Positions 2,892 to 28,387 of a stretch of DNA of 28,387 nucleotides are shown piece after piece; the stretch's first letter is position 1; each line of letters begins with the position of its first letter. The position numbers and the translations under genes were made by a program. This stretch comes from a virus: positions 1 through 28,387 of the IMG/VR virus record IMGVR_UViG_3300036830_000168, one strand, 5' to 3'. The notes beneath the pieces were generated by a model. That model worked only from the letters and a program-made list of their open reading frames with translations, searched no databases and was not told the DNA's origin.

Positions 2892-2914
2892 CTGCCGCCA
2901 CGCTAGAGCGGCAG
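2892..2914. terminator. Hairpin between convergent genes
   Basis: A 7-bp perfect stem pairs CTGCCGC (2892-2898) with GCGGCAG (2908-2914) around a nine-base loop that contains the endolysin stop codon (2903-2905). Plus-strand transcripts from the small-gene run and minus-strand transcripts from the late operon meet here. T-tracts are weak, so termination efficiency is uncertain. Confidence 0.45.
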
Positions 2915-3664
2915 CTTGAAATCAGCGCCGGCCGGCGGCACCTGGGCGCCAAGCTCCTGGTTCAGCCACGCGGCGATCTCGTCGGGGAACGCGCCGTCTT
3001 GCTTCGCGGTCGCCCGCAGCAGTTCGGACGGGGCATGCCCGTGGGCATTCGCCAGCGCCCTGAGCGTGGTCTTCCCGTCAGCCGTCACGTCCGTCACGGT
3101 GGCTCCCTCCCTGATCTGCTTGGCGAGCGCGATGATCGCGGGCCGCTGGGCCTTCCGCACATCGCCCGGGCAGCCGGGGTGGTTGCCCCAGGCGACCCCG
3201 CCATCGCCATGCGTGATCAGTCCCGTGCCGCTCGCCGTGTCGTCGGTGATCTGGAGCGGGAACCCGTCGTAGGCGCTGACGGCTTCGAGGATCTGCGCGA
3301 ACGTGGCGACCTGGGCCGCCGTCATCGGCTGCCCTGTCTTGGTCATGTCCTCGCACTCGCACGAGCGCCACGAGGCATTGCCGGCGCCCTCGGCCCACGC
3401 CACGTAACCCTGGCCTAGGGGAAGGAACTGCTGGGCGGCGCCGTTCTCGCCGACCCCGAAGAACGCCGAGACCTCGCTGGCCTTGCTCAGGAACGTCGCG
3501 ACGGTGCCGGCCGTGAAGCCGTCTTCGGTGTGCTGCACCATTCCGCGCGACTTGACCGCGAAGCCCGACCCGTAATGGTTCGGGCTCAGGTAGTGCGTGA
3601 TGGTGATCGGCCCCTGGAGCCAGCCGTGAGCGTCGAAGTGGCACTTGCCGGGGATGGTGGTCAC
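2903..3664 (-). CDS. Endolysin: N-acetylmuramoyl-L-alanine amidase with LysM-like C-terminus
   Basis: The 253-residue enzyme would cleave the bond between N-acetylmuramic acid and L-alanine in peptidoglycan to release progeny. Residues 20-185 fit Amidase_2/PGRP: H45 in MVQHTEDG as the first zinc ligand, a middle part with VGENGAAQQFLPLG and YVAWAEG, and a late THGDGGVAWGNHPGCPGD block supplying H152 or H162 and C165. Residues about 195-253 (DGKTTLRALANAHGHAPSEL ending in FKLPL) resemble the LysM-like tail of many actinophage endolysins. The start is GTG 3664: AGGGGGG lies just upstream and GTGA overlaps the previous stop. It is the last gene of the lysis block, after several small membrane proteins. 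Confidence 0.88.
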   Translation of the reverse strand: MTTIPGKCHFDAHGWLQGPITITHYLSPNHYGSGFAVKSRGMVQHTEDGFTAGTVATFLSKASEVSAFFGVGENGAAQQFLPLGQGYVAWAEGAGNASWRSCECEDMTKTGQPMTAAQVATFAQILEAVSAYDGFPLQITDDTASGTGLITHGDGGVAWGNHPGCPGDVRKAQRPAIIALAKQIREGATVTDVTADGKTTLRALANAHGHAPSELLRATAKQDGAFPDEIAAWLNQELGAQVPPAGADFKLPL

Positions 3665-3981
3665 ATGCCCCCCTGCCTGTCTATGTGCTGGCGGATGCGG
3701 TGCTCGGCGCGGACCACGTGCATCTCGGTGAGCCCCGAGGTGAATAGCGAGAGCGTGGCCGCGAACAGCGGGATCACGGTGAAGCACTCGCAGGCGTCCA
3801 CCAGGTGCCCCCAGCCGTTCGCCGGGGGCACGTCCCCGCCCAGGGTCACGGCGTTCGCCAGGGCGTTGTACAGGCCCAGCCAGACGGCGATGTGCTCGGC
3901 GGCGGCGTAGGCGATCCCGCAGGCGCCGTCCAGGGCCAGGGCGGCAGCGACGACGAGCAGGGCAATCTTGTGGTGAGTCAC
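3661..3981 (-). CDS. Two-TM membrane protein, holin candidate
   Basis: The 106-residue product has hydrophobic segments at about residues 5-28, with a possible short continuation at 30-45, and at 66-84, followed by a basic, His-rich C-terminus (RAEHRIRQHIDRQGG). The start is GTG 3981, overlapping the previous stop as GTGA. It immediately precedes and is coupled to the amidase gene, the usual place of a holin or lysis-timing protein in actinophages. Size and topology fit a class II-like holin, but adjacent genes have similar features, so which is the true holin is unresolved. Confidence 0.65.
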   Translation of the reverse strand: MTHHKIALLVVAAALALDGACGIAYAAAEHIAVWLGLYNALANAVTLGGDVPPANGWGHLVDACECFTVIPLFAATLSLFTSGLTEMHVVRAEHRIRQHIDRQGGM

Positions 3982-4361
3982 CGCGGCGGCGTCATCAGGG
4001 CGATGAGCGTGTCGAGGCGCTCGCACACGTCCGCGAGGGTGACCTCGCCGTGGTAGGCGCGGCCCTCGGGCAGGTGGCGGGTGCACCAGGGGGTGCCGGC
4101 GATCTTGTGCTTGCCCAGCCTCCAGCACCGCTCGGAGTGACAGTTCCGGACATGGTAGGCGCCGCCGACGAGGGTCAGCAGCGACAGGACCGTCAGCGAC
4201 GGGAGGAAGCCCGACTCGAACTGGTACGGCCAGCCAGTACCCGGCGGGACCGGCCAGATGCCCATGGCGAACCGCCAGCCGAGCCAGTGCGCGGCCATCG
4301 ACCAGGCGCACAGGCCGAGCAGCGCCGCCAGGGCGCACCGGGTGACTATGCGCCGGGTCAT
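3978..4361 (-). CDS. Two-TM membrane protein with Cys/His cytoplasmic tail
   Basis: The 127-residue protein has membrane segments at about residues 10-30 and 53-73. A soluble C-terminal part follows, with HSERCWRLGKHKIAGTPWC and then TRHLP, a Cys/His pattern that may bind metal. Similar small membrane proteins with a CWR..GKH..GT..C..H motif occur next to lysins in actinobacteriophages. The ATG at 4361 starts three bases after the TGA of the preceding small gene. In this lysis block it could be a holin partner or a phage membrane protein of other function. Confidence 0.65.
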   Translation of the reverse strand: MTRRIVTRCALAALLGLCAWSMAAHWLGWRFAMGIWPVPPGTGWPYQFESGFLPSLTVLSLLTLVGGAYHVRNCHSERCWRLGKHKIAGTPWCTRHLPEGRAYHGEVTLADVCERLDTLIALMTPPR

Positions 4362-4363
4362 CG

Positions 4364-4537
4364 TCAGCTGCGCGTGCGCACGATCGGGTCGTGCCAGCCC
4401 CGGATGTAGGCGATCACGGCAGCGGACACGAGCATCAGGCCGACGATCAGGAGCCACTGAAGCCATGAGCCGTGCGAGCCGGTGATCTTCAGGATGAGGG
4501 CCAGGAAGCCGGCCAGGAAGGCGAGGATCGCAAGCAT
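4364..4537 (-). CDS. 57-aa two-TM protein, small holin candidate
   Basis: The ATG at 4537 has GGAGAG ending four bases upstream. The reading frame gives 57 residues to a TGA at 4364-4366. The protein is almost all membrane: segment one is residues 2-17 (LAILAFLAGFLALILK), segment two 26-46 (LQWLLIVGLMLVSAAVIAYI), with a short loop and a basic tail (RGWHDPIVRTRS). That is the minimal two-TM holin plan. It falls in a tight minus-strand string of lysis-block genes, between the one-TM protein at 4553-5014 and the Cys/His membrane protein. Confidence 0.7.
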   Translation of the reverse strand: MLAILAFLAGFLALILKITGSHGSWLQWLLIVGLMLVSAAVIAYIRGWHDPIVRTRS

Positions 4538-4552
4538 GTTCTCTCCGATCGG

Positions 4553-5014
4553 TCAGTGGGCCTTGTACGCCTGCTGGCAGTCCCGGACCATGTAGGCGTT
4601 CGCGATGTGCCGTTCGAGCTTCGCGAGGAACTTCTGCGCCGCGGCCTTCTGCGCCGAAGTGTCCGACGCGGGCGGCTGGAGCGCGGCGACGACGAACGCC
4701 CACAGCGCGGCCTGCTTGTTCTTCGAGTCGTTGTTGACGAGGCAGCCCTGTACCTGGCTGGCGTGCAGCTGACTGAGGGTCGCGCCGTTGCGGTTCGACG
4801 CGTCGCTGGCGTCGCGGGCGGTCACGGCGAACACGGCGACCACGACGGTCAGCAGGACGTCGAGCACCAGCGAGACGGTCAGGCCGATGACCACGTGGCG
4901 CATGCGGTCCTGGCGCTTGTTGACGGCCGCCAGCTCGCGGCTCATCCCCTCCAGCGCCTTCGTGAGTGCCTGGGCGGCGGTGACGGCTTCCTGGTCCGGG
5001 GTCGGCTCGGTCAC
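4553..5014 (-). CDS. One-TM protein with N-terminal coiled coil
   Basis: The 153-residue product has a helical N-terminus (residues 5-38, ALTKALEGMSRELAAVNKRQ), one strong membrane span at about 41-66 (VVIGLTVSLVLDVLLTVVVA), and a soluble extracytoplasmic domain with two Cys (QGCLVNND and RDCQQAY) that could form a disulphide. The start is GTG 5014, overlapping the stop of the upstream gene as GTGA, with only a weak ribosome site. Bitopic proteins of this shape occur near lysins in actinophages and are often listed only as membrane protein; a spanin-like or antiholin role is possible but not shown. Confidence 0.7.
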   Translation of the reverse strand: MTEPTPDQEAVTAAQALTKALEGMSRELAAVNKRQDRMRHVVIGLTVSLVLDVLLTVVVAVFAVTARDASDASNRNGATLSQLHASQVQGCLVNNDSKNKQAALWAFVVAALQPPASDTSAQKAAAQKFLAKLERHIANAYMVRDCQQAYKAH

Positions 5015-5166: not shown

Positions 5167-5417
5167 ATGTCCCCTGGCCGATCTTCGAGCAGCTCGGCCA
5201 GCCGGCCGAGAAGCTGGGAAACCTGGCGGGCCTGCGAGAGCGCCTCGGCGGCGAGGGCGCGGACCTGCGCCGACGTCATCTGGGCGCGGGGGGCTGCGAG
5301 GGCCTCGGCGGTCATGCCGGCTAGCTCGCCTTCGCCGGGCATCCCGGCAGCGCGCACGCGGACGCGCTCAGCGAGCATCCGGGTCTCCTCAGAGATGTCG
5401 TCATCGTCGCCCGTCAT
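5163..5417 (-). CDS. 84-aa helical acidic protein
   Basis: ATG 5417 overlaps the stop of the upstream gene (ATGA). The protein opens with an acidic patch (GDDDDISEE), then is all helical with Ala/Arg/Leu/Gln-rich heptads (RALAAEALSQARQVSQLLGR and LAELLEDRPGDI). No membrane span or Cys is present. It is part of the coupled chain 5884 to 3664, so it is likely made together with the lysis proteins. Function unknown. Confidence 0.65.
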   Translation of the reverse strand: MTGDDDDISEETRMLAERVRVRAAGMPGEGELAGMTAEALAAPRAQMTSAQVRALAAEALSQARQVSQLLGRLAELLEDRPGDI

Positions 5418-5884
5418 TGGCTCTCGCGTCCGCGTCGGCGTGGGAATGAGTTGTCGTCGGCGTTCTGCACGACCCGCTGGAGGATTGGCAGAAGTGACGA
5501 AGTCGATGCATTGAACTGGAAAAGTATTGGAGCCAGGTCATCGCGGGCGAACCGGAGGTTCTCGGCTAGCTGCGCCTCGACTTTCTCCTTCTCGGTGACG
5601 AGGCGCTCGATCTCCCGGAGCAGGTCCGCGCGGCTGGCGGCGATCATCTCGTCTACGCGCTTCTGCGGGACGAACGATCCCTTCCACACGATCCACGCCA
5701 GGACCAGGGCTACGGCCCCGGTGACGCCGTAGCCGAGCACCTGCTGCGCCGCTGCGCCCAGGACGTCGCCGCCGCTCCCCGGCGCGTCAGCGAGAAAGGG
5801 AACGGCCGGCGTCCAGGGGCTCAGCCCGGCGTGGACTGCGACGAGGACGATCCGGTGCATTGCCAGCGGGGGAAGCCAAGGCAC
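5414..5884 (-). CDS. Membrane-anchored coiled-coil protein, holin-like
   Basis: The start is GTG 5884, with GGGGGAGG about five bases upstream; an ATG eight codons in is an alternative. The product has a hydrophobic N-terminus (residues 10-30, possibly a signal or first span), one clear membrane helix at about 50-68 (GYGVTGAVALVLAWIVW), then a long charged coiled coil (75-118: VDEMIAASRADLLREIERLV, EKEKVEAQLAENLRFARDDL) and a basic end (RRRGRESQ). One or two TM helices plus a cytoplasmic coiled coil recur in actinophage holin-like proteins. It is the first gene of the lysis block. Confidence 0.7.
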   Translation of the reverse strand: MPWLPPLAMHRIVLVAVHAGLSPWTPAVPFLADAPGSGGDVLGAAAQQVLGYGVTGAVALVLAWIVWKGSFVPQKRVDEMIAASRADLLREIERLVTEKEKVEAQLAENLRFARDDLAPILFQFNASTSSLLPILQRVVQNADDNSFPRRRGRESQ

Positions 5885-5916
5885 CTGCGCCTCCCCCGTC
5901 TGCTCGTACTCGCGTG

Positions 5917-5945
5917 ATTACCGTGCGTGATGTGGAGCCGGCCAA
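5917..5945 (-). promoter_or_regulatory. Candidate promoter of the lysis block
   Basis: Reading the minus strand, TTGGCC (complement of 5940-5945) and GGTAAT (complement of 5917-5922) are separated by exactly 17 bases, each matching four of six consensus bases. The lysis block must start in this 73-base divergent gap or be read through the oppositely oriented 1.4-kb gene. Two direct GCGTGAT copies (5912-5918, 5925-5931) overlap the site and could bind a regulator. Confidence 0.3.
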
Positions 5946-5951
5946 TAGCAT
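5946..5951 (+). promoter_or_regulatory. Leaderless-type -10 box (TAGCAT)
   Basis: TAGCAT ends six bases before the ATG at 5958, which would place transcription start at or next to the A of the start codon. There is no Shine-Dalgarno. The same spacing recurs before three other plus-strand genes (22695, 24610, 25315). No conserved -35 is seen. Confidence 0.4.
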
Positions 5952-5957
5952 CCGGGA

Positions 5958-7331
5958 ATGACTGCCACGCTGGCCACCGCGCTCTTACTCCAGTTAGCCG
6001 CGGTCGCCCTGCTGCGCCACCGGCTCGGCCGGACGTGGCTGCGCAGGCCGGTCACGCTGCTGGTCCTGGCGAGCGTGGTGTACGACGGCGTCTCGCCGCT
6101 GCTGATGACGGTCCCGTCTGTGGGGAAGTGGGACATCTACCGGCAGGGCATCGCGCCGCAGTACGCGGACGAGGCGGTCCTGGTCCTGGCAGCGGGCATG
6201 CTCGCGCTGACCGTCGCTTACCTGCTGACGCGCCCCGAGCGGTCAGTCCCCGGGATGGTCCCCGCTGACATCCGGGCGGTAACCAGGGCGCTGGACTGGC
6301 GGCTGCTGGCCGCAGCGTGCGCGCCGCTCGCGGTGATCACCTACGCGGGACGCGGGTACAACGATGCCGCGCCGTCCGCAGGTACCGCGACCGCGCTGTC
6401 AGCGAACCTCGCGTCGGCGTTCTTCGTCACGCTCGTACTGCTCGCCGCGCTCGGCTTCCTGCTGCGGTACGGCACCCGCTGGTTCCTGCCGGTCCTCGCC
6501 GTGCAGTCCGCATCCCTCGCCGCAGCCGGGGAGCGGACGCCGGTCATCATCGACGCGATCGGCCTGGGCCTCCTGCTGGCCTTCGCCGGGCGCCGGCCGT
6601 CCCGCCGGCAGGTCGCCGTGGCGCTCGGCCTGACCCTCGCCGCTGTCATGGCGATCACCGGGCTCAGAGCCGGAGAGGGACGCGGGGTGTTCTACCGGGA
6701 CAGCGGCCTCCCGGAGCGGCTGTCCGCGCTGGGATCCGGGCTGACGGGCATGTTCTCCGCACCGGAGCCGGGGACGCCGGGGATCATCTCGCAGGCCGCC
6801 GTGCGCCTGGACGGCACCGACTGGACAGCCGGCATCCTCCAGGCCCGGCACCTGGGCCAGCCGCGGATGAGCGCGGCGGGGATTCCCCGCTCGCTGCTGC
6901 TGGCGGCCCCCTCGGCGGTGTGGCCGTCCAAGCTGGACCACGGCGGCCTGGATGCCTACGTGGCTCAGATCCGGTACTTCGGGCTCCAGGACGTGAACTT
7001 CCTGGCCGGGTTCGCGGGGCTGTACGCCGGGATGCTCACCGTGCCGTGGCTGATCGCGTTCCTGGCACTGTGCGGGCTGCTGGCCGGCCGGGGAGAACGG
7101 TGGCTGCTGGCGCGGTTCACCCCGGCCCGGCTGGTGCTGTACGCCGGCGCCGTGACCGAGGCGCTGTGGTATGAGCAGGGCCTGGTGTTCATGCTCGCGG
7201 CATTCCGCGCCGCTGTTGTCGTGGCGGCCGCCGCATGGCTGGCCGGGAAGGTTCTCGCGGCGCGCCCGCGCCGGGCGCCTGCCCCGGGGGGAAGTGCCCG
7301 GTCCTTCCCGCCGCATCATGGAGCCGGCTGA
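5958..7331 (+). CDS. Polytopic membrane protein, O-antigen polymerase (Wzy)-like
   Basis: The 457-residue protein has roughly ten hydrophobic segments: near 2-20, 33-52, 75-93, 115-130, 150-168, 175-192, 200-216, 221-238, then after a long hydrophilic loop at 355-385 and 400-435. The loop (about 240-345) has PERLSALGSGLTGMFS, RMSAAGIPRSLL and then WPSKLD. The segment just after it, IRYFGLQDVNFLAGFAGLYA, resembles the YxxFG...GFxGLYAG signature near the end of Wzy/O-antigen-ligase-type integral membrane proteins. The role would be building or modifying cell-surface polysaccharide, but no family was confirmed. It stands alone on the plus strand between the lysis and tail genes, as a moron would. 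Codons 10 and 13 are TTA, rare in such genomes. Confidence 0.55.
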   Translation: MTATLATALLLQLAAVALLRHRLGRTWLRRPVTLLVLASVVYDGVSPLLMTVPSVGKWDIYRQGIAPQYADEAVLVLAAGMLALTVAYLLTRPERSVPGMVPADIRAVTRALDWRLLAAACAPLAVITYAGRGYNDAAPSAGTATALSANLASAFFVTLVLLAALGFLLRYGTRWFLPVLAVQSASLAAAGERTPVIIDAIGLGLLLAFAGRRPSRRQVAVALGLTLAAVMAITGLRAGEGRGVFYRDSGLPERLSALGSGLTGMFSAPEPGTPGIISQAAVRLDGTDWTAGILQARHLGQPRMSAAGIPRSLLLAAPSAVWPSKLDHGGLDAYVAQIRYFGLQDVNFLAGFAGLYAGMLTVPWLIAFLALCGLLAGRGERWLLARFTPARLVLYAGAVTEALWYEQGLVFMLAAFRAAVVVAAAAWLAGKVLAARPRRAPAPGGSARSFPPHHGAG

Positions 7332-7350
7332 CATCTCCGGGCTGCGGAAT

Positions 7351-10017
7351 CTAGGAGAAGTGCGTGACTATCAGCGCCCAGCCGGCACCCCCCGCGCCGC
7401 CTGCCCCGGAGTTGCTTCCGTTGACGCTCGCTCCGCCTCCGCCACCCCCGCCGCCGTAGAAGGCGCTTGCCCCAGTCTGGGCGACGGTGGTAACAGAGGC
7501 CGCGCCGGCGCCTCCTCCGCAGGATGGCGTGCCCTGCGACGACGGCTGAGTTCCCGCCGTGGGAATAGTGGTGTCCACCACCCCGCCGCTGCCAGTGTTG
7601 GATGATGCCCCGTTCCATGAGAACGATGCGGTTCCGCCGGCCGACGCCACATTGGCCGACGTGACGGTGCCCCCGGCCCCTCCGCCGCTGGCTGAATATG
7701 AGCTTCCCGAGCCGTTTGCCGCCGCGCCCGTTGTGGACGCCGATCCGCCGGCCCCCCCGTTGCCCCCGTTGCTGCTGGTCACGCCTCCCGTACCCGAGGC
7801 TGCGCTGCCACCCGCACCGCCGTTGCCCCCGGGGGCGAACGCAAAGGATCCGAAGGTGGCGCCAGTCCCGTTGCCGCCGGCGTTCCCGTTCGTGGTGTCC
7901 GTGGTGACGGCCGCTCCCCCGGAGCCCCCTGCTCCCACGGACCCCGTCACCGAAGACGGCAGGTCGGACGCCACGAACGTCCGCGCGACCAGGACGCCGC
8001 CTGCACCGCCTCCGCCTCCGCACCGCACGGTTGAGGCAGCCCCTCGGCAACCTGAGCCGCCGCCACCCCCGCCGCCGAGGATGCGTACGTCCACGGCCTG
8101 CGCCCCGGACGGCTTGGTCCAGGTATACGAGCCCGTGGCCGTCACGAACTGAACGCTCGGGACCGCCGACGACGGACGGGAGGACACCTCGATGAGGCTC
8201 GTTCCGTCGTAGTAGAAGGTGACAGAGTCCACCGCGTTCGCGGCGGTGGACGCAGCCGGCGCCGTGCCGTTCGCGAACACGCAGTTCGACGGCCATGCGT
8301 ACGTCCGGCCGCCTGTCGCGTCCTGGACCCACGAGATGGTGACGCACTGGCCCGGGTACAGGTTCGTGACGCTGCTGGAGGTGCAGTTGGCCTGCAAGGT
8401 GATCTTGGCGTACTCGGCCACGCCCTGGATGGCGACCGCGCCAGCGGAGCTGAGGGTCTGGAACTCCACTGGCGACATCACGTCGCGGCCGGTGCCGTTC
8501 CACGTGAACGTCTTGAAGCCCGGCCCGAGCCGCATCGGCCCGGGGATGTAGGTGCCGGAGGTAACGCTGGAGCCGGTACCGGTGAGCTGCGTGTAGGAGG
8601 TGGCCACGACGCTGACCGCCTCAGTCGAGGCGGAGCTGAACAGCTGGTGCAGCGGCTGGGGCACCTGGAGGCCCGAGGCGGTCACGGTGAGAGTGAATCC
8701 GGATGAAGCGGTATTGGCGCCGAGCAGGATCAGCGGGGTGACGGTTCCCTGGTTCTGGTAGGTGATGTTGCGGAGATCCAGGTTCCCGGAGAACCCGTAG
8801 TTGATGAATGCACCGTCGCTGCTGAGAAAGGAGTCGTTCCCGACTCCGAAGTAGTAGTTGTGAACGGACACTGTCGCCGGGGTGCTGACCGCCGTGGCGA
8901 ACAGCATCCGGGCTGAGTTCTCCGACCGGGGGCCGTCGATGACAACCGGGTCAGACTCGTTCATGCTGGCCAGGTAAATGTCGGAGAAGGTGTTCTCCCC
9001 GAAGTCGCCGCCGTACCAGCGGAACCCGGCAGAGTTGGCCTTGACGCCGTACTGGTTGTTCTCGGAGACGCAGCCGAACATGCGGGTGTCGAGCACGTTG
9101 GAGGCCGTGCCGTCGTTGATGATCCACCCGGCGCCCGTGCAGGCCAGGGCCTTGCAGTCCCAGAAGTTCGTGAATGCCACGTCGGCGTGGTGATCGGGGG
9201 AGACTGCGAACCCGTTGACGAGCGTGCCGCCGGCGCCGCCGTTGATGTAGACGCGCCGGAACCAGCAGGACTCCGCCGACGTGGCCGAGGTGACCCCGCA
9301 GGCGTAGGTGACGTTCCCTCCGGAGGCGACCTGGATGGTCAGGTCCTCTAGCCCGGACAGCGCTCCCTGGAGGACGATTCCCCAGGTCATGGTGGCAGAA
9401 AGCGATATTCTGGTGATGTCCGCGCCCATGCCGCGAATCCGCTGGAGCGAACTGCCGAGCGTGACGCCGTTGCCTGATCCGTCCGCCGCCGAGATGGTGA
9501 ACGCGCCGGCGCCAACCTGGATAAGGCCAGGCGACGATCCGAGCGCGGTCAGCGCCCCCGCGATGGTGGCCTTGGCGGTGTAGACGGTCAGGCCGTCGTT
9601 GCTGTCACTGGCGTAGGAGGCCGCCGAGACGAAGTACGTGGACTCGGTCGCCGAGGGCTTGGCGGTCAGCCCCCCCAGCGGCAGGTCGTCCCCGTGGACG
9701 TCCCACACCCCGGCTGAGGAGTTGTACTGGAGCTGGACGCCCTGGTTCAGCAGCTTCAGCGTCACGGTTGCGGAGCCGCCGGGCAGGTTGAACTTGTCGG
9801 TGCCGCCGCACGTCACCGTGACCGCGTTGACGGTCGCCGCGGAGGCGACGAGCTTGACGCCCGCAGCGGTCTTGTCCGCCGGGGCCGACACCAGGGTCGC
9901 GGTATACGCGCCGGCCGTGGAGTCGATCTTGACGAACTGGCCTGCGGCGACCGAGCAGGACGTGCCCGTCTGGACCGAGGTGGGGTTGCGCAGGCGTGAG
10001 TAAAACGAGTCGCTCAC
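7351..10017 (-). CDS. Tail fibre / receptor-binding protein: beta-helix plus glycine-rich tip
   Basis: The 888-residue protein starts at GTG 10017 with GGAAGG upstream. Residues 1-110 are a beta-rich N-terminal part, likely the virion anchor. Residues about 126-440 read like a right-handed beta-helix of the pectate-lyase fold (opening STYFVSAASYASDSNDGLTV, then PGLIQVGAGAF and RIRGMGADITRISL). Residues about 450-640 are further beta-structure. Residues about 645-888 are a glycine-rich domain with long Gly runs, GGNGGAGGSA repeated, ending GGAGWALIVTHFS, the usual tip of phage fibre proteins. The role is probably recognition and possibly degradation of host surface polysaccharide; no catalytic residues can be assigned. 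It is the last tail gene before the Wzy-like cassette. Confidence 0.8.
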   Translation of the reverse strand: MSDSFYSRLRNPTSVQTGTSCSVAAGQFVKIDSTAGAYTATLVSAPADKTAAGVKLVASAATVNAVTVTCGGTDKFNLPGGSATVTLKLLNQGVQLQYNSSAGVWDVHGDDLPLGGLTAKPSATESTYFVSAASYASDSNDGLTVYTAKATIAGALTALGSSPGLIQVGAGAFTISAADGSGNGVTLGSSLQRIRGMGADITRISLSATMTWGIVLQGALSGLEDLTIQVASGGNVTYACGVTSATSAESCWFRRVYINGGAGGTLVNGFAVSPDHHADVAFTNFWDCKALACTGAGWIINDGTASNVLDTRMFGCVSENNQYGVKANSAGFRWYGGDFGENTFSDIYLASMNESDPVVIDGPRSENSARMLFATAVSTPATVSVHNYYFGVGNDSFLSSDGAFINYGFSGNLDLRNITYQNQGTVTPLILLGANTASSGFTLTVTASGLQVPQPLHQLFSSASTEAVSVVATSYTQLTGTGSSVTSGTYIPGPMRLGPGFKTFTWNGTGRDVMSPVEFQTLSSAGAVAIQGVAEYAKITLQANCTSSSVTNLYPGQCVTISWVQDATGGRTYAWPSNCVFANGTAPAASTAANAVDSVTFYYDGTSLIEVSSRPSSAVPSVQFVTATGSYTWTKPSGAQAVDVRILGGGGGGGSGCRGAASTVRCGGGGGAGGVLVARTFVASDLPSSVTGSVGAGGSGGAAVTTDTTNGNAGGNGTGATFGSFAFAPGGNGGAGGSAASGTGGVTSSNGGNGGAGGSASTTGAAANGSGSSYSASGGGAGGTVTSANVASAGGTASFSWNGASSNTGSGGVVDTTIPTAGTQPSSQGTPSCGGGAGAASVTTVAQTGASAFYGGGGGGGGASVNGSNSGAGGAGGAGWALIVTHFS

Positions 10018-15792: not shown

Positions 15793-18700
15793 TCAGTGGC
15801 CGTTGGGCAGCGTCAGGCCGTTACTGACGTTCCGCCGGTTCCGCTTGAGGGTCGCGGTCTGCACGACGTTGGCCAGCGTCTGCCCCGACACGGTGATCGT
15901 CGCGTTCAGCGTCACGTTGATCGGCTGGCTGGACCCGCCCGTCGCCCCCGACATCACCGCCGGGTGCATGACCGTGACGGGCTGCGGGGCGCGGATCGGG
16001 CCGGGCTGCGCGAACCCGCCCGGTCCCTTCTCGGGCTTCGGCGAGTAGATGATGTGCGGCGGCGTGATCGTCGGCTTCTTGCCGCTGCTGCCCGAGCCGG
16101 AGCCCGAGTCGATGCCGAGTTCCTTGTCGAGCTTCTTGATCGCGGCCTTGATCTGCTTGCTGGAGTCGCCCAGAGCGGTCATGATGCCCGTGACCAGGGA
16201 CTTCGCGATGGACTCCATCTCGGCGTTCACGCCCTTGAGGGACGCCTTCAGCCCGGCAGCAAGCGCGCCGCCGATCTGGCTGGCGCTCTCGTACGCCGCG
16301 TTGCCGCCCGTGATCCCCAGCTTCTTGCTGGCCAGGCCGATGCTGTTGTCGAGCTGGGCGATCTGCTGGACGGCCTTCTTCCCGCCCGCCAGGATCTGGG
16401 TGGCGGTCGCGCCGCCGGACTGCACGCCCGCCGCGAGGAGTTCCTGGATGCCCTGCTTGTCCAGGCCGTCCTTCTTCAGCTTGATGATCTGCTGCCGGAA
16501 CTGCTGGATCGACTTCAGCTGAGCCTGGAGGCCCTGCTGGATCGACTGGGTCTGCGGCTGGGCGGCCTGCGTGCCCCCGAGTGCGAAGTCCAGCGACCCG
16601 TCATCCGCCGCAGCCGCCTGCCCCGCCGGGGTGGCCGCCGCGATCGTGTTCAGGTCCGCGCTCGACACCGCGGCCTGCTGCACGGACTTGGCCAGCGCGT
16701 CGGCGGCCTGGATCTGGTTCTCCAGCTTCTGCCGCTGGGCCGCCAGCTTCTGGAGCCGCTGGTTGTCCAGGTCGAGGAGCTGGGTCAGGCCCGTCTGCTG
16801 GAGCGGGTTGATCTTCCCGGCCTTCGCCGCGGCGTCGATCTCCTTGGTGATCGCCGTGACGGTGGACTTGATCGTGGAGTTCGGCGCGGGGGTTCCCAGG
16901 ACGTCCCGCATGGCCTTCTGGACCGCGGACTTGCCGCCCAGGAGCCCGAGGATGTAGCCCAGGGCGCTGTTCTCGCCGATCTTCTGGAACTTCTTCGACG
17001 GGCTCTTGATGATGAGCTGGATGTTCGCCGCAGTCTCGGCAGCGGCGGCAAGGCTGGCGGCGGCGGACGACACGGCCCCGGTCTCGCCCGCCAGCCCGGC
17101 CGCCAGGCCCGCTCCGGCCTGAGTGCCGATGGCGCGGAAATCTCCCGGCAGTGGCGCGATAGCCCCCCGCATCGACCCGGCCATCGCCGACACCGCCGCC
17201 GACGCCCGTCCCGCGCCGGCGGCGACACCGGTCCCCATCGCCGTCCCGGCCGTGCCAACCTGCTTCAGGCTGGACTCGGCCGCCTGGGCGCCGGTCACCT
17301 GGACCTTGAGGTCCGTCTTGGTCTTCCCGGCCGCCTGCGCGGCGGTGGAGACGCCCTTGAGATCGGCCTTGGCCTTGTCCGCGCCCTCGGTGTCGACCTT
17401 GATCTTGACCGGCTTGGGCTTGGCCGAGTCGAGGCCCTTGATATCGGCTTTCGCCTTGGCGGCGCCGTCGACCGAGACCTTGATCTTGACGTCGCCGGCG
17501 TCCTTGCCGCCCTTCAGCGCGCCCGCGGCACCGATGCGTGCCTGCGCCCCGAGGTTCGTCCCCGGCTTGATGCCGAGAAGCTTGTCCCATGTGCTCGCGC
17601 CGAAGCTGCCGGTGTCGCCGATTGCCCTCGCGGCAGCCTTCGGGACCGTCTTCCACGAGAAGTCGCCGACCTTGCCGGCGATGTTAAACGCATCGCCGAT
17701 CGCCTTGCCGACCGGCGAGTTCGCGGCCTTGGTGGTGACGTTCATGATCGTGGACAGGTCCTTGGCGACGCTGCCCAGCGACTTCACCGTGCCGGGGCCG
17801 AATTCCTTCGCGAAGCCGCCCAGCGACGATAGGAACTGATCGCCGATCTTTACGTTGCCCTTGCTGAACAGGGCCGTGGCGATGGCGCCGAACGCATTCC
17901 CGACCTGCTTCAGCGGCCCGGCCAGCCCGGGGATCTCGCTCTTGATGTTGCTGATGAACTTCTCGAAGCCAGTGGACTTCTCGAACTTGCCGAAGTCCTT
18001 GAGCATCCCGGAGATCAGCGGGTTCGTGGCCTTGGCCAGCCCCTGGACGGCGGGCAGCAGCCCCTTGATGTCCTTGATTGCCTTCGGGATGTCCTTCAGC
18101 GCGTCAGCCTGGATCGGCTTCCCCGCCTTGGAGAATGCCGACTCCAGGCCCTGAACCGCCTTCACCGAGGGCCGGACGTCAGCCGGGATCGTCGCCCAGG
18201 TCGCCTTGAGAGAGTCCAGCGCGGCCTTCTCGGACGCCGCGTGCGCCTTGGTGGGGTCAATCGCCTCGGTAGCCGCGGCCTTCTGGTACGCCTGCTGCGC
18301 AGCCGTGACGTTGGTCAGGCCGTCCTTGACCTTCAGGATCGCCGGGGCCGCCAGCGCGCCCCACGACGCGAACCCCAGGCCCGTGGCGGCGAGCGCCGGG
18401 CCGATGGTCGTGATGGCCGACGCGATGCCGACGATCGCGGCGGGGAACGCCGCTGACTGCGCGGCCCCGCCGACCTTGCCGAATGCGCCGCCGAAGCCGC
18501 CCAGGCCGCCGATCGACGAGATGAAGCTCTCGCCCTCGCCGCCAGCGTCCTCCAGCCCCGACGACAGGTCACCAAGCCCGCGGGTCGCGTCTTCCGTCGT
18601 CCTGCCGAAGTCGCCCAGTACCCCGTCGAGCTCGCGGCTCGCCCGGATCGCCGTGGCCGCGTCCCCGTGCCCGGAGGCGAAGTCGTGGACGGACCCGCGC

Positions 18701-19407
18701 CAGTTGTCCATCGCCTCCTTAGCGATGGAAGCCTGCCGGCCAGACTCCGCGATGGCCTCGCCGGACTGGTCGATGTACGGCGCCGCCTCGGAGTACGCCT
18801 TGCGGGCGTCCTCGATCGCGCGGGCCGAGTCGTCGATGGCCTGGCGGGCGCCGAGGAAGGACTCCGAGCCGGTCAGGCCCGTGGTCCGGATGTCCCGGCC
18901 GAGGTCTGCGGTGGCCTTGTCGGCCTTCTCTGCCTCGGTGCGGTAGGTTCCCAGTTCCTTCTCGAGGTCCGCCAGGCCCGATGCGCTGCCCTTCGGCAGG
19001 TTCCCGCCCGCATCCCGGCTCGCGCCGATGTCGGCGATCTGCTTCCCGGCGTCCGCGTACAGGTCGCGCGACGCCTTGCGCATCGCCGACGCCTGGGCGC
19101 CTGCCTCCTTGCGCGCCGCGGACAGGGCAGCCGTGGACGCGGCCTCCAGGTCGGCCGCGGCGGCAGACTCCGCCGATGCGTCCCGGACCCCGGAGATTTC
19201 CTTCTTCGCCGCAGCGGCAGACGCGGCAGCGGCATCCATGCCGCCCGAGATCTCGGCACCGGCCTCAGCGCCGGCGGCGCCCGCCTCTTCCTCGGCGGCG
19301 GTGAGGCCCTCAAGGGCGCCTTCAAGGTGCTCGACCTCGGAGGCTGCCTCGTCGAAGCCCGAGACGCTTGCGTGGACCTCTACGTTCTTCTCGATGTCAC
19401 CGGCCAC
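15793..19407 (-). CDS. Tape measure protein
   Basis: The 1204-residue protein starts at GTG 19407 with GGGGGTGA upstream. It sets tail length and is ejected with DNA. Residues 1-300 are Ala/Glu/Lys helices, mostly coiled coil. Residues about 315-360 are hydrophobic (IVGIASAITTIGPALAATG, LGFASWGALAAPAILKV), a likely membrane-inserting stretch. Residues about 630-720 hold three degenerate repeats around VKIKV...GAxKAKADLKG. A further helical region (QRLQKLAAQRQKLENQIQAA) follows, then a Gly/Ser/Pro linker and a beta-like C-terminus (PINVTLNATITVSGQTLANV). It follows the chaperone genes, as expected. At about 1.5 angstrom per helical residue it predicts a tail near 180 nm. Confidence 0.92.
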   Translation of the reverse strand: MAGDIEKNVEVHASVSGFDEAASEVEHLEGALEGLTAAEEEAGAAGAEAGAEISGGMDAAAASAAAAKKEISGVRDASAESAAAADLEAASTAALSAARKEAGAQASAMRKASRDLYADAGKQIADIGASRDAGGNLPKGSASGLADLEKELGTYRTEAEKADKATADLGRDIRTTGLTGSESFLGARQAIDDSARAIEDARKAYSEAAPYIDQSGEAIAESGRQASIAKEAMDNWRGSVHDFASGHGDAATAIRASRELDGVLGDFGRTTEDATRGLGDLSSGLEDAGGEGESFISSIGGLGGFGGAFGKVGGAAQSAAFPAAIVGIASAITTIGPALAATGLGFASWGALAAPAILKVKDGLTNVTAAQQAYQKAAATEAIDPTKAHAASEKAALDSLKATWATIPADVRPSVKAVQGLESAFSKAGKPIQADALKDIPKAIKDIKGLLPAVQGLAKATNPLISGMLKDFGKFEKSTGFEKFISNIKSEIPGLAGPLKQVGNAFGAIATALFSKGNVKIGDQFLSSLGGFAKEFGPGTVKSLGSVAKDLSTIMNVTTKAANSPVGKAIGDAFNIAGKVGDFSWKTVPKAAARAIGDTGSFGASTWDKLLGIKPGTNLGAQARIGAAGALKGGKDAGDVKIKVSVDGAAKAKADIKGLDSAKPKPVKIKVDTEGADKAKADLKGVSTAAQAAGKTKTDLKVQVTGAQAAESSLKQVGTAGTAMGTGVAAGAGRASAAVSAMAGSMRGAIAPLPGDFRAIGTQAGAGLAAGLAGETGAVSSAAASLAAAAETAANIQLIIKSPSKKFQKIGENSALGYILGLLGGKSAVQKAMRDVLGTPAPNSTIKSTVTAITKEIDAAAKAGKINPLQQTGLTQLLDLDNQRLQKLAAQRQKLENQIQAADALAKSVQQAAVSSADLNTIAAATPAGQAAAADDGSLDFALGGTQAAQPQTQSIQQGLQAQLKSIQQFRQQIIKLKKDGLDKQGIQELLAAGVQSGGATATQILAGGKKAVQQIAQLDNSIGLASKKLGITGGNAAYESASQIGGALAAGLKASLKGVNAEMESIAKSLVTGIMTALGDSSKQIKAAIKKLDKELGIDSGSGSGSSGKKPTITPPHIIYSPKPEKGPGGFAQPGPIRAPQPVTVMHPAVMSGATGGSSQPINVTLNATITVSGQTLANVVQTATLKRNRRNVSNGLTLPNGH

Positions 19408-22307: not shown

Positions 22308-22344
22308 GCTGCCTCCAGGCACGGAAAGTGGGATGATGGTTACG

Positions 22345-22362
22345 GCGCGTGATGGCACGCGC
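22345..22362. repeat. Inverted repeat in divergent gap
   Basis: GCGCGTG (22345-22351) and CACGCGC (22356-22362) form a perfect 7-bp dyad around ATGG. It lies in the 74-base gap between the divergent starts at 22307 and 22382 and may be an operator or a hairpin in the plus-strand leader. Confidence 0.4.
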
Positions 22363-22381
22363 ACCAAGGGGGGAGTGGGGA

Positions 22382-22684
22382 ATGCGGGCCTACGTGAGCC
22401 GCAGGGGGCATGCCGGCTTATCGTTCGGCTGCCTGGGGACCGTCGTGATGGGCGGCCTGATCGTGCTGGCCGTGGAGGCTGCCGTCGGGCTGCCGGTGCT
22501 GGCTGCCGCCGCGTGGCTGGCCGCGGTGGTCATCGCCGGCCTTGTGCGGCTGGGCCGCCGGCCGTCACGGACGGGACTGCGGATCTACCACGCCCCGCGT
22601 ATGCCGCGGCACCGGGTGCGGTACGTGGAGCGGGAGCAGTGGCCGCATGCTGTCCGCGAGGGCTCCTGGCTGGACCGGCGCTAG
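22382..22684 (+). CDS. Two-TM membrane protein (moron-like), 100 aa
   Basis: ATG 22382 has GGGGAG about eight bases upstream and is preferred over an upstream GTG. The protein has membrane spans at about 15-33 (FGCLGTVVMGGLIVLAVEA) and 36-55 (LPVLAAAAWLAAVVIAGLV), then a basic cytoplasmic tail with RPSRTGLRIYHAPRMPRHRV and a Trp-containing end. No family is recognised. It is the first gene of a three-gene plus-strand cassette inserted between the tail tube genes and read against the late operon. Confidence 0.65.
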   Translation: MRAYVSRRGHAGLSFGCLGTVVMGGLIVLAVEAAVGLPVLAAAAWLAAVVIAGLVRLGRRPSRTGLRIYHAPRMPRHRVRYVEREQWPHAVREGSWLDRR

Positions 22685-22687
22685 GCT
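22682..22687 (+). promoter_or_regulatory. Leaderless-type -10 box (TAGGCT)
   Basis: TAGGCT overlaps the stop codon (TAG, 22682-22684) of the two-TM gene and ends seven bases before ATG 22695. No Shine-Dalgarno precedes that ATG. The layout matches the TANNNT boxes before 5958, 24610 and 25315. Confidence 0.35.
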
Positions 22688-22694
22688 GCGGGCC

Positions 22695-23180
22695 ATGAGC
22701 AGCGAGGCCGAGGCGGTCGCGTGGCTGCGGGCGCAGATCGAGAGCGACCGGGCGCTAGCCGAGCGGATGGCCAAGCGGTTTGTGCGGCCACCTGATCGCG
22801 AGCGCCCCGGCGAGCCGATCTGGCCGCCGCCGAGCATCGAGCGCAAATGGCAGAGGTTCGAAGACCCCGAAGTGCGCGCCGGCCTCGACTTCACGCTGGC
22901 GCACAGTCCGCATGACGTGCTCGCGGACTGCGAGGCGAAGCTCGCCCTGGTCGACGAGATGGTGAACCTGCGGATCGCCAGCATCGCCTACCCGGATGAG
23001 GCTGGGCCGGAAAGCGCCGGGGTGATGCTCGGCATCCTGGCCGGCGCCTACCGCCACCGCGAGGGCTACGCGGAGCGCTGGGGCGTCAAGGTGACCGGCT
23101 CGACGACCTTCCGGGGATCGATGTCGGAGCCGTTCAGGTACGCCACCTACGAGCCGCCCACGTGGGAGCCCAAGCCATGA
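22695..23180 (+). CDS. DUF6221-like protein, 161 aa
   Basis: ATG 22695 begins MSSEAEAVAWLRAQIESDRA, the characteristic opening of DUF6221 proteins (short helix E-x-V-x-W-L-R-A-x-I/L-x-x-D). The middle has HSPHDVLADCEAKLALVDEM, matching the family's H-D-P-x-x-V-L-x-x-x-E-A-K pattern, and near the end GYAERWGV corresponds to the usual Y-R-E-E-W. Family function is unknown; members are common in Streptomyces genomes and their phages, often in accessory regions. It lacks a ribosome site and has a -10-like hexamer instead. Its stop overlaps the next start (ATGA). Confidence 0.7.
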   Translation: MSSEAEAVAWLRAQIESDRALAERMAKRFVRPPDRERPGEPIWPPPSIERKWQRFEDPEVRAGLDFTLAHSPHDVLADCEAKLALVDEMVNLRIASIAYPDEAGPESAGVMLGILAGAYRHREGYAERWGVKVTGSTTFRGSMSEPFRYATYEPPTWEPKP

Positions 23181-27021: not shown

Positions 27022-27040
27022 GAGGGTCCTTCCGGGTGGC

Positions 27041-27082
27041 GCCCCGTCCCGCCCGCCGGGATGGCGGCGGGCGGGACGGGGC
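27041..27082. terminator. Very stable hairpin downstream of the capsid gene
   Basis: A perfect 17-bp G/C-rich stem pairs 27041-27057 with 27066-27082 around an eight-base loop. On the minus strand it starts 22 bases after the capsid stop and has no T-tract. It is probably an attenuator or mRNA-stabilising structure that lowers downstream expression relative to the capsid. Confidence 0.65.
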
Positions 27083-27104
27083 GGGCGAGCAGGAGCAGGA
27101 CGGC

Positions 27105-28387
27105 TCAGGCCGCGACGCCGACCCGGTAGCCGCGCCCGACGAACTTGGGCGTCCGGACGGCCAGGCAGGTGTCCCCCATGATCGCGAACGGCAGCGAGTC
27201 GGGAGAGCTGGTCGTCGGGTAGACGTCGAGCATCTCGGCGTCCCGCACGAACGGGCGGACGATGTTGCCCGGGTCGCGGGACATCAGGTAGATGTTCTCC
27301 TGGCCCTGGCCCGGGGGAAGCATGCTGGCGTTCGTCCCGAAGTAGGACGTCGGCAGCGTGCCCGGCACCAGCGACCCGGACGACTGGCCCGGGATCAGCG
27401 CCGCGCCCGTGTCGATGATCTGGTTCGTCATGATGGGGGTAACCCCGTCGCTGGCCAGTCCGACCGTGGAGTCCACGTAGCCGAGGAACGTCTCGGTCCC
27501 CGTGGCGCCGCCGGCTGCCGTCCGCCACACCTTGTAGAGCTGCGGCCCGAGGCCGTCCTGGCCGGCCGGAGGGGTAAGCGACAGCACGACGTTGTTCGTG
27601 GTGGTGACGGCCTGGGAGACCTCGGCCGACGGCAGGATCTCGCCCATCCGGGCGATGACCGCGCTGACCTGGTACTTGTAGGTCCCGTTCAGCGTCGCCG
27701 CAGAGTTCGATGCGGTCGTGCTCGTCACCGCGCCGACCTGGTAGCCCAGGGTGGCCAGGAACGAGGACGGGACCAGCGGGACGCGCTTGTAGGAGCCGAC
27801 GATCAGGCCGGCCTCGACCTCGACGTCGTTGTAGCGCTGCTGGGAGACCAGGAGCTGCGCGATCCGCGCCTCGGCGCCGACGGACAGGACGAACATCCAC
27901 GACGGGTCCGACACCGGCTCGGCGGCATTGCCGGACACCATGACCATCAGCTCGTCGAGGGTCGCCAGGGACAGCGACTTGCCGGCGAAGTCGATGACGT
28001 TCTGGTTCCCGCCGCCGCTGAAGGTGCTGATCTGGGTGTCGAGGCCGTCGAACTGCGGCTGCGCCGCACCGGGGTTGTACGTGGTGCTCGCGGCGTTGCC
28101 CCAGCCCATGAACGTCTCGACGTCCCAGAAGTAGCCCTTGATGGCGCCGTTGATTTCAGTCGCCCTCAGGTTCTGGATGACTTCCTGGGTGACGGCCTGC
28201 GCGTAGCCCGTGACCGAGCCGACGGCCTGGACGTGGCCCATGTTGGCGCCCTGCTGCACGTACGTGCTCGTCGACACCGGCCGGGCGCCGCCGTCGGGCA
28301 CCGCGCCGCCGCTGACGTTCACGGTGCGCTGGTTGAAGAAGTACGTGGTGCTGTTCGTCTTCTTCGTGGAGATGGCCCGGCACCAGG
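27105..28387 (-). CDS. Major capsid protein with inserted Ig/FnIII-like domain (5' end missing)
   Basis: The frame is open to the right edge: before an internal GTG at 28322 it reads STKKTNSTTYFFNQRT, clearly protein, so the true start lies outside. The visible 426 residues include VTGYAQAVTQEVIQNLRATE, IKGYFWDVETFMGWGNAAS, QFDGLDTQIS, NVIDFAGKSLSLATLDELMV and near the end DPGNIVRPFVRDAEMLDVYP, RTPKFVGRGYRVGVAA, consistent with HK97-fold coat proteins that carry a GN...FDGLD motif. Counted from GTG 28322, residues about 205-310 (YKYQVSAVIARMGEILPSAE, LYKVWRTAAGG, TFLGYVDSTV) look like an immunoglobulin/fibronectin-type insert, likely a surface decoration. Confidence 0.82.
   Translation of the reverse strand, partial: WCRAISTKKTNSTTYFFNQRTVNVSGGAVPDGGARPVSTSTYVQQGANMGHVQAVGSVTGYAQAVTQEVIQNLRATEINGAIKGYFWDVETFMGWGNAASTTYNPGAAQPQFDGLDTQISTFSGGGNQNVIDFAGKSLSLATLDELMVMVSGNAAEPVSDPSWMFVLSVGAEARIAQLLVSQQRYNDVEVEAGLIVGSYKRVPLVPSSFLATLGYQVGAVTSTTASNSAATLNGTYKYQVSAVIARMGEILPSAEVSQAVTTTNNVVLSLTPPAGQDGLGPQLYKVWRTAAGGATGTETFLGYVDSTVGLASDGVTPIMTNQIIDTGAALIPGQSSGSLVPGTLPTSYFGTNASMLPPGQGQENIYLMSRDPGNIVRPFVRDAEMLDVYPTTSSPDSLPFAIMGDTCLAVRTPKFVGRGYRVGVAA

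Follow-up and report, generated by a model that had tools for sequence, protein, structure and literature searches.

A Wzy-like membrane protein gene in an exchangeable slot of probable actinophages: a candidate for lysogenic conversion

The stretch of DNA analysed, here called the window, is the complete IMG/VR virus record IMGVR_UViG_3300036830_000168 (28,387 bases; GC content ∼0.70) and is probably a fragment of a larger phage genome. Its late genes lie on the minus strand; minor tail proteins and the fibre come after the tape measure and are followed by a lysis block, which ends in an Amidase_2 endolysin. The following genes frame the locus:

27105-28322, minus strand: major capsid protein, SU10-like
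15793-19407: tape measure protein
7351-10017, minus strand: tail fibre or minor tail protein (Gly_rich_2 and PHROG tail matches), which borders the slot described below on one side
5414-5884, minus strand: small protein with a transmembrane (TM) segment and a C-terminal part rich in charges, whose gene opens the lysis block and borders the slot on the other side (counterparts in the related records L031 and L060)
4553-5014 and 4364-4537, minus strand: small membrane proteins of the lysis block
2903-3787, minus strand: endolysin, Amidase_2 (PF01510 over the cut-off, PHROG endolysin match, relative in L031)

A perfect 19-nt inverted repeat with a 6-nt loop was observed at 27040-27083, immediately 3′ of the stop of the capsid gene (minus strand), and is likely a terminator or processing hairpin.

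Between the fibre gene and the lysis block, a single gene, P0001, runs on the plus strand. The initial annotation had described an intact reading frame of 457 residues at 5958-7331, and both its coordinates and its length were recovered exactly. P0001 was judged to be coding, and the observation to stand, because its codon-position GC content (0.74/0.55/0.90; GC3 0.90) shows a pattern that is missing from the overlapping 311-aa antisense ORF and from the other frame. The gene was also found to be alone on its strand, as had been reported, all neighbours from the fibre (7351-10017) to the lysis block being on the minus strand. A role as holin or in another lysis function was considered and rejected, as the protein is too large and its gene is antisense to the lysis genes. 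The features within the gene are:

5958-7331, plus strand: P0001, Wzy-like polytopic membrane protein, slot gene, 457 aa (from ORF, codon use, profile, residues and topology)
6534-6536, plus strand: codon of R193, at the family's GxR position (16 of the 24 Wzy-type proteins have R here)
6666-7031, plus strand: codons 237-358, the long loop that starts with R237 and is predicted to lie outside the membrane (from hydropathy and charge distribution)
6909-6932, plus strand: codons 318-325, PSAVWPSK, counterpart of the signature PRxxWPxK (from an alignment of 24 Wzy-type proteins)

Hydropathy analysis of P0001, which is rich in Ala and Leu, gave eight strong and three to four weaker hydrophobic segments, in agreement with the roughly ten noted before, and confirmed the long hydrophilic loop at residues 237-358. 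Eleven TM segments were predicted, and a weak twelfth is possible at 304-322. Lys and Arg residues fall on alternating sides of these segments (20 among 77 residues on the inner side and 4 among 49 in the short loops outside), and for this reason the loop 237-358 was assigned to the outside. R193, R237 and the signature loop are thus predicted to lie on the outer face. The YFGL...GFAGLYAG stretch singled out in the initial annotation exists, at residues 340-358, but it is not terminal, as it ends ∼100 residues before the C terminus. A single-sequence structure model (pLDDT 45) was too poor for a fold search. The predicted topology is that of Wzy-type proteins, with 10-14 TM segments and a long extracytoplasmic loop near the C terminus, and it places conserved Arg and Lys residues (R193, R237 and K325, all at family positions) on the outer face.

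No relatives of P0001 were found in 50,697 phage records, 72,556 plasmids, the IMG/VR contigs or the GTDB species contigs, nor among 29 related virus records, and the alignment-based viral scans A3 and A4 returned none. A draw of 396 Actinomycetota genomes gave spurious matches only; four weak matches (L043-L046) were dismissed as relatives, three being chance matches in unrelated frames and L043 a GT-C-like protein. Searches against Pfam, NCBIfam, PHROG and PDB sequences gave no relevant match; TIGR04370 (oligosaccharide repeat unit polymerase; curated cut-off 40 bits) was not hit, since no NCBIfam match was obtained up to E 10. As direct relatives were lacking, the identity of P0001 was sought by using profiles, motifs and genomic context.

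Members of TIGR04370 and their relatives were gathered from Actinomycetota, and many carried PRxxWPxKP ahead of the last helices. A profile HMM (Wzy-type HMM) was built from 24 of these actinobacterial PRxxWPxKP polymerases, a group near TIGR04370; it aligned collinearly with P0001 over positions 41-313 of 319, the best domain scoring 35.5 bits without bias correction. Shuffled sequences that preserved local composition and hydropathy reached this score in 0 of 1000 cases at windows of 10, 15 and 25, and in 1 of 1000 at a window of 5. A larger set of membrane decoys contained true Wzy proteins, so a small clean membrane set and GT87 proteins were used as controls. The maximum scores were 18.3 bits for actinobacterial membrane proteins (n=25), 21.4 for GT87 enzymes (n=28) and 31.4 for Wzy_C proteins (n=29); L088, a distant relative of the Wzy-type family, scored 34.4 bits, about the same as P0001. 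The bias-corrected score of P0001 (HMMER) was 3.5 bits, which is not significant and was exceeded by four of the 25 membrane controls, and hhalign gave an 18-column match only between P0001 and the family. With the Wzy_C profile PF04932, P0001 scored 38.9 bits, not above the controls (membrane proteins ≤40.5, GT87 proteins ≤45.2). The GT87 profile gave 4.9 bits, which is shuffle level (Z 0.1) and offers no indication of a GT87 or GT-C mannosyltransferase. The earlier description of P0001 as Wzy-like can therefore be kept in part: profile, motif and topology favour it, and the uncorrected score exceeds shuffles and controls, but significance is lost once composition is corrected for, and no curated cut-off is reached.

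In the alignment of the 24 proteins, P0001 carries the expected residue at eight conserved positions (R193, R237, D288, P318, W322, P323, K325 and G373), five of which (R237, P318, W322, K325 and G373) are invariant across 12 aligned sequences. The family frequencies in the signature are 24/24 for P318 and W322, 19/24 for P323 and 23/24 for K325. Compared with PRxxWPxKP, the sequence PSAVWPSKL of P0001 retains P, W, P and K, and has replaced the R and the final P. Three near-invariant residues are lost in all (R319S, P326L and G361T), the last being the conserved G at the NFG position. Polymerase and ligase families are reported to hold their conserved residues on the outer face; two of the three clans, GT-C1 and GT-C2, have a long loop near the C terminus and a conserved Arg or Arg/Lys, and in the ligase two Arg residues bind the lipid diphosphate (PMC10920833). 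The predicted anatomy of P0001 agrees with this published layout.

A search with the capsid protein yielded the 29 related virus records mentioned above and two Streptomyces prophages at 53-55 % identity. The most syntenic record is L031 (IMGVR_UViG_3300037258_000171; 64.9 kb), which has the tape measure, minor tail genes, fibre N terminus and endolysin in common with the window. At precisely the corresponding place, flanked by fibre and lysis block, antisense to both and oriented as P0001, this sister phage carries a gene for a different polytopic protein of 418 aa, P0002. BLASTP detected no meaningful similarity between P0001 and P0002. With the Wzy_C profile, P0002 scored 96.8 bits uncorrected, above all controls (shuffles at most 65.3, GT87 proteins at most 45.2). 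In a third syntenic record, L060 (IMGVR_UViG_3300037258_000615), the slot measures only ∼170 bp and contains no gene; the remaining related loci that were inspected, many of them incomplete, yielded no membrane gene of this kind. The slot and its upstream element are:

5885-7350, no strand: exchangeable slot from lysis block to fibre (empty, ∼170 bp, in L060; occupied by P0002 in L031)
5916-5957, plus strand: promoter-like element GATTACCGTGCGTGA-N15-TAGCAT-N6, which abuts the ATG, with the −10-like TAGCAT at 5946-5951 (match to the region upstream of P0002)

Since P0001 is Wzy-type-like and P0002 Wzy_C-like by profile, one functional superclass appears to be represented by two different types in the same slot of the sister phages. 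The proposal that P0001 is a phage moron is well supported by its antisense orientation, its private promoter-like element, the empty slot of L060 and the different gene of L031.

Two further observations were made in the related records. The 64.9-kb phage encodes an RtcB-like RNA ligase and a second RNA-ligase-like protein, recognised by eye (L150 3287-4441 and L031 17821-18528, both minus strand), possibly an RNA repair pair. L183, a relative of lower GC content, has a glycosyltransferase-like gene (by eye; 3373-4536, plus strand) within its tail gene region.

Both slot genes are preceded by GATTAC(C/G)G(A/T)GCGTGA-N15-TAG(C/G)AT-N6-ATG with identical spacing. Upstream of P0001 and P0002, 25 of 42 positions are identical in register, a value reached by none of 20,000 shuffles, the two regions having been compared in a single register set by the start codon and the pattern having been defined post hoc from the two sites. 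The in-register position ranks first or second of the ∼57,000 positions of the window. The related loci (1.6 Mb, counting both strands) gave no further copy of the element, the next best site having 8 mismatches of 24, and it was likewise absent from the empty slot of L060 (11 mismatches) and, at ≤3 mismatches, from the 396 genomes. A scan of the slot for sigma-70 and terminator consensus sequences found nothing. The slot gene mRNA is probably leaderless, because TAG(C/G)AT stands six bases ahead of the ATG without a Shine-Dalgarno sequence; expression in the lysogen would be the natural reading, because the gene runs opposite to the late operon.

A second antisense cassette of two genes lies inside the late operon and is kept in the sister phage; upstream of it, at 22338, GGTTACGGCGCGTGA resembles the slot element with 2 mismatches of 15. 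Its genes are:

22349-22684, plus strand: small two-TM protein (MRAYVSRRGHAG...); L009 11322-11654, minus strand
22542-23180, plus strand: AWLRxQIxxDxALAER protein; L009 10834-11385, minus strand

The fibre next to the slot had been credited in the initial annotation with a polysaccharide-binding type of architecture, which could not be confirmed. Apart from a Gly-rich domain at the C terminus and PHROG matches to minor tail or fibre proteins nothing was recognised in it, a PDB sequence search gave no match, and its single-sequence structure model (pLDDT 40) was useless. The fibre of the sister phage (L031 7587-10514, plus strand) has a weak CBM_5_12 match below the cut-off (E 0.004); nothing similar to this carbohydrate-binding module was found in the fibre of the window.

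A tyrosine integrase was identified in all eight of the larger related records examined, both syntenic records included; the 28-kb window record contains none. As the lineage carries integrases, lysogenic conversion by P0001 is plausible. On balance we consider it probable, by a modest degree, that P0001 is a distant Wzy-type polymerase that acts as a lysogenic-conversion moron, without being a demonstrated member of any curated family. The analysis shows the intact gene, the slot and the exchange of its content, the common upstream element, the predicted topology, the likeness in profile and motif, and the integrases of the relatives, whereas enzyme activity, substrate, expression in lysogeny, and surface and exclusion phenotypes are inferred. 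In a lysogen the slot gene would have a promoter of its own, would probably give a leaderless mRNA, and would be read in the direction opposite to the late operon. P0001 would span the cytoplasmic membrane and expose its long loop on the outer side; R193, R237 and K325 might bind the lipid-pyrophosphate donor, and the protein would polymerise or re-link host repeat units in a new way. A surface glycopolymer that serves phages as receptor would thereby be changed, and the lysogen with the altered glycopolymer would exclude superinfecting phages.

The same profile result can be read in another way. P0001 might be a moron membrane protein of another class, such as a GT-C mannosyltransferase, an acyltransferase or a transporter, with a Wzy likeness that stems from shared membrane-protein composition; the bias-corrected score of 3.5 bits, not significant, the Ala/Leu-rich sequence and the absence of a curated family match would all be expected on this account. 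We regard it as rather unlikely, since shuffles with preserved local composition and hydropathy fall short of the score of P0001, GT87 and random membrane proteins stay far below it, the GT87 profile is blind to P0001, the Pfam acyltransferase and transporter models gave no match, and motif, topology and slot partner fit a polymerase.

The loss of the near-invariant R319, P326 and G361 would fit a further reading. P0001 could be Wzy-like and yet act as a dominant-negative form, or it could modulate the host polymerase in chain length or ligation, in which case the glycan would be lost or shortened and no new linkage formed, and phages that block the host polymerase do exist, as with Iap of D3 (PMC12373910). 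The known inhibitors are, however, small peptides and not full-length polymerases, P0001 retains R193, R237, W322 and K325, and its reading frame and codon bias are typical of a maintained gene, which makes such a role improbable. It is more improbable still that P0001 is a mere passenger, a recently acquired host glycan gene that is not expressed and is of no benefit to the phage. The want of a sequence relative in other phages would suit this view, yet a close host homologue was likewise not found (GTDB species contigs and 396 genomes), and chance pick-up is inadequate to account for a sister phage whose slot contains another gene of polymerase type, oriented alike and preceded by the upstream element at the same spacing.

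Because the sister phage has a different polymerase-like gene in the same slot with a matching promoter-like sequence, the comparison suggests that these viruses alter the sugar coat of the cells they inhabit, probably soil actinomycetes. The slot would best be read as a site for lysogenic-conversion genes that encode polymerases of lipid-linked glycans, comparable in actinophages to the seroconversion by D3 and epsilon15. A wider generalisation is possible, though we would sooner doubt than expect it: temperate actinophages may keep a dedicated surface-conversion slot in which a Wzy-type gene, a Wzy_C-type gene or none is exchanged behind one conserved leaderless lysogeny promoter, and each variant may re-link or re-lengthen the host glycopolymer read by the fibre, which would parallel O-antigen seroconversion in Gram-positive hosts. 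Phage polymerases are known to cause seroconversion of Gram-negative O-antigens, and the wall targets of actinophages on actinomycetes are poorly known; infection by phiC31 depends on protein O-mannosylation (PMC5882110). A literature search of incomplete coverage on O-antigen polymerases and actinobacteriophages found nothing relevant. If the proposal is true, an exchange of polymerase class beside the fibre points to host glycopolymers as receptors, and the slot gene becomes a direct handle for finding them.

Among known systems, the actinobacterial chromosomal PRxxWPxKP Wzy polymerases resemble P0001 in a collinear profile alignment, eight shared residues, and similar size and topology. P0001 differs from them in being phage-borne, in having ∼20 % identity and scores below every curated cut-off, and in the replacement of R319, P326 and G361. 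The O-antigen ligase/Wzy_C family (PF04932) belongs to the same superclass of lipid-diphosphate-sugar enzymes, and P0002, in the same slot of the sister phage, is similar to it, whereas P0001 scores with the PF04932 profile like unrelated membrane proteins. TarP, a cytoplasmic side-chain glycosyltransferase and not a polytopic polymerase, is a further parallel as a prophage gene that alters a Gram-positive wall glycopolymer, although its sequence is unrelated to P0001. Prophage TarP of Staphylococcus aureus changes wall teichoic acid (PMC9650247). Pseudomonas phage D3 and Salmonella phage epsilon15 carry Wzy_C-type polymerases, the Wzy-beta proteins, which act in seroconversion, and D3 lysogens are resistant to superinfection (PMC4815439). 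The Wzy-beta of D3 belongs to a unit with an inhibitor and an acetylase, whereas P0001 stands alone, and no D3-like inhibitor of the host polymerase is visible beside it. The Wzy-beta proteins are, moreover, of Wzy_C type and from phages of Gram-negative bacteria, whereas P0001 is not of Wzy_C type and its host is probably an actinomycete; P0002 of the sister phage would be their Wzy_C-type counterpart. P0001 resembles the Wzy-beta proteins as a phage-borne polytopic polymerase-type protein of a probably temperate phage, with Arg residues predicted on the outer face, and it would likewise be expected to change the surface polymer and to exclude other phages.
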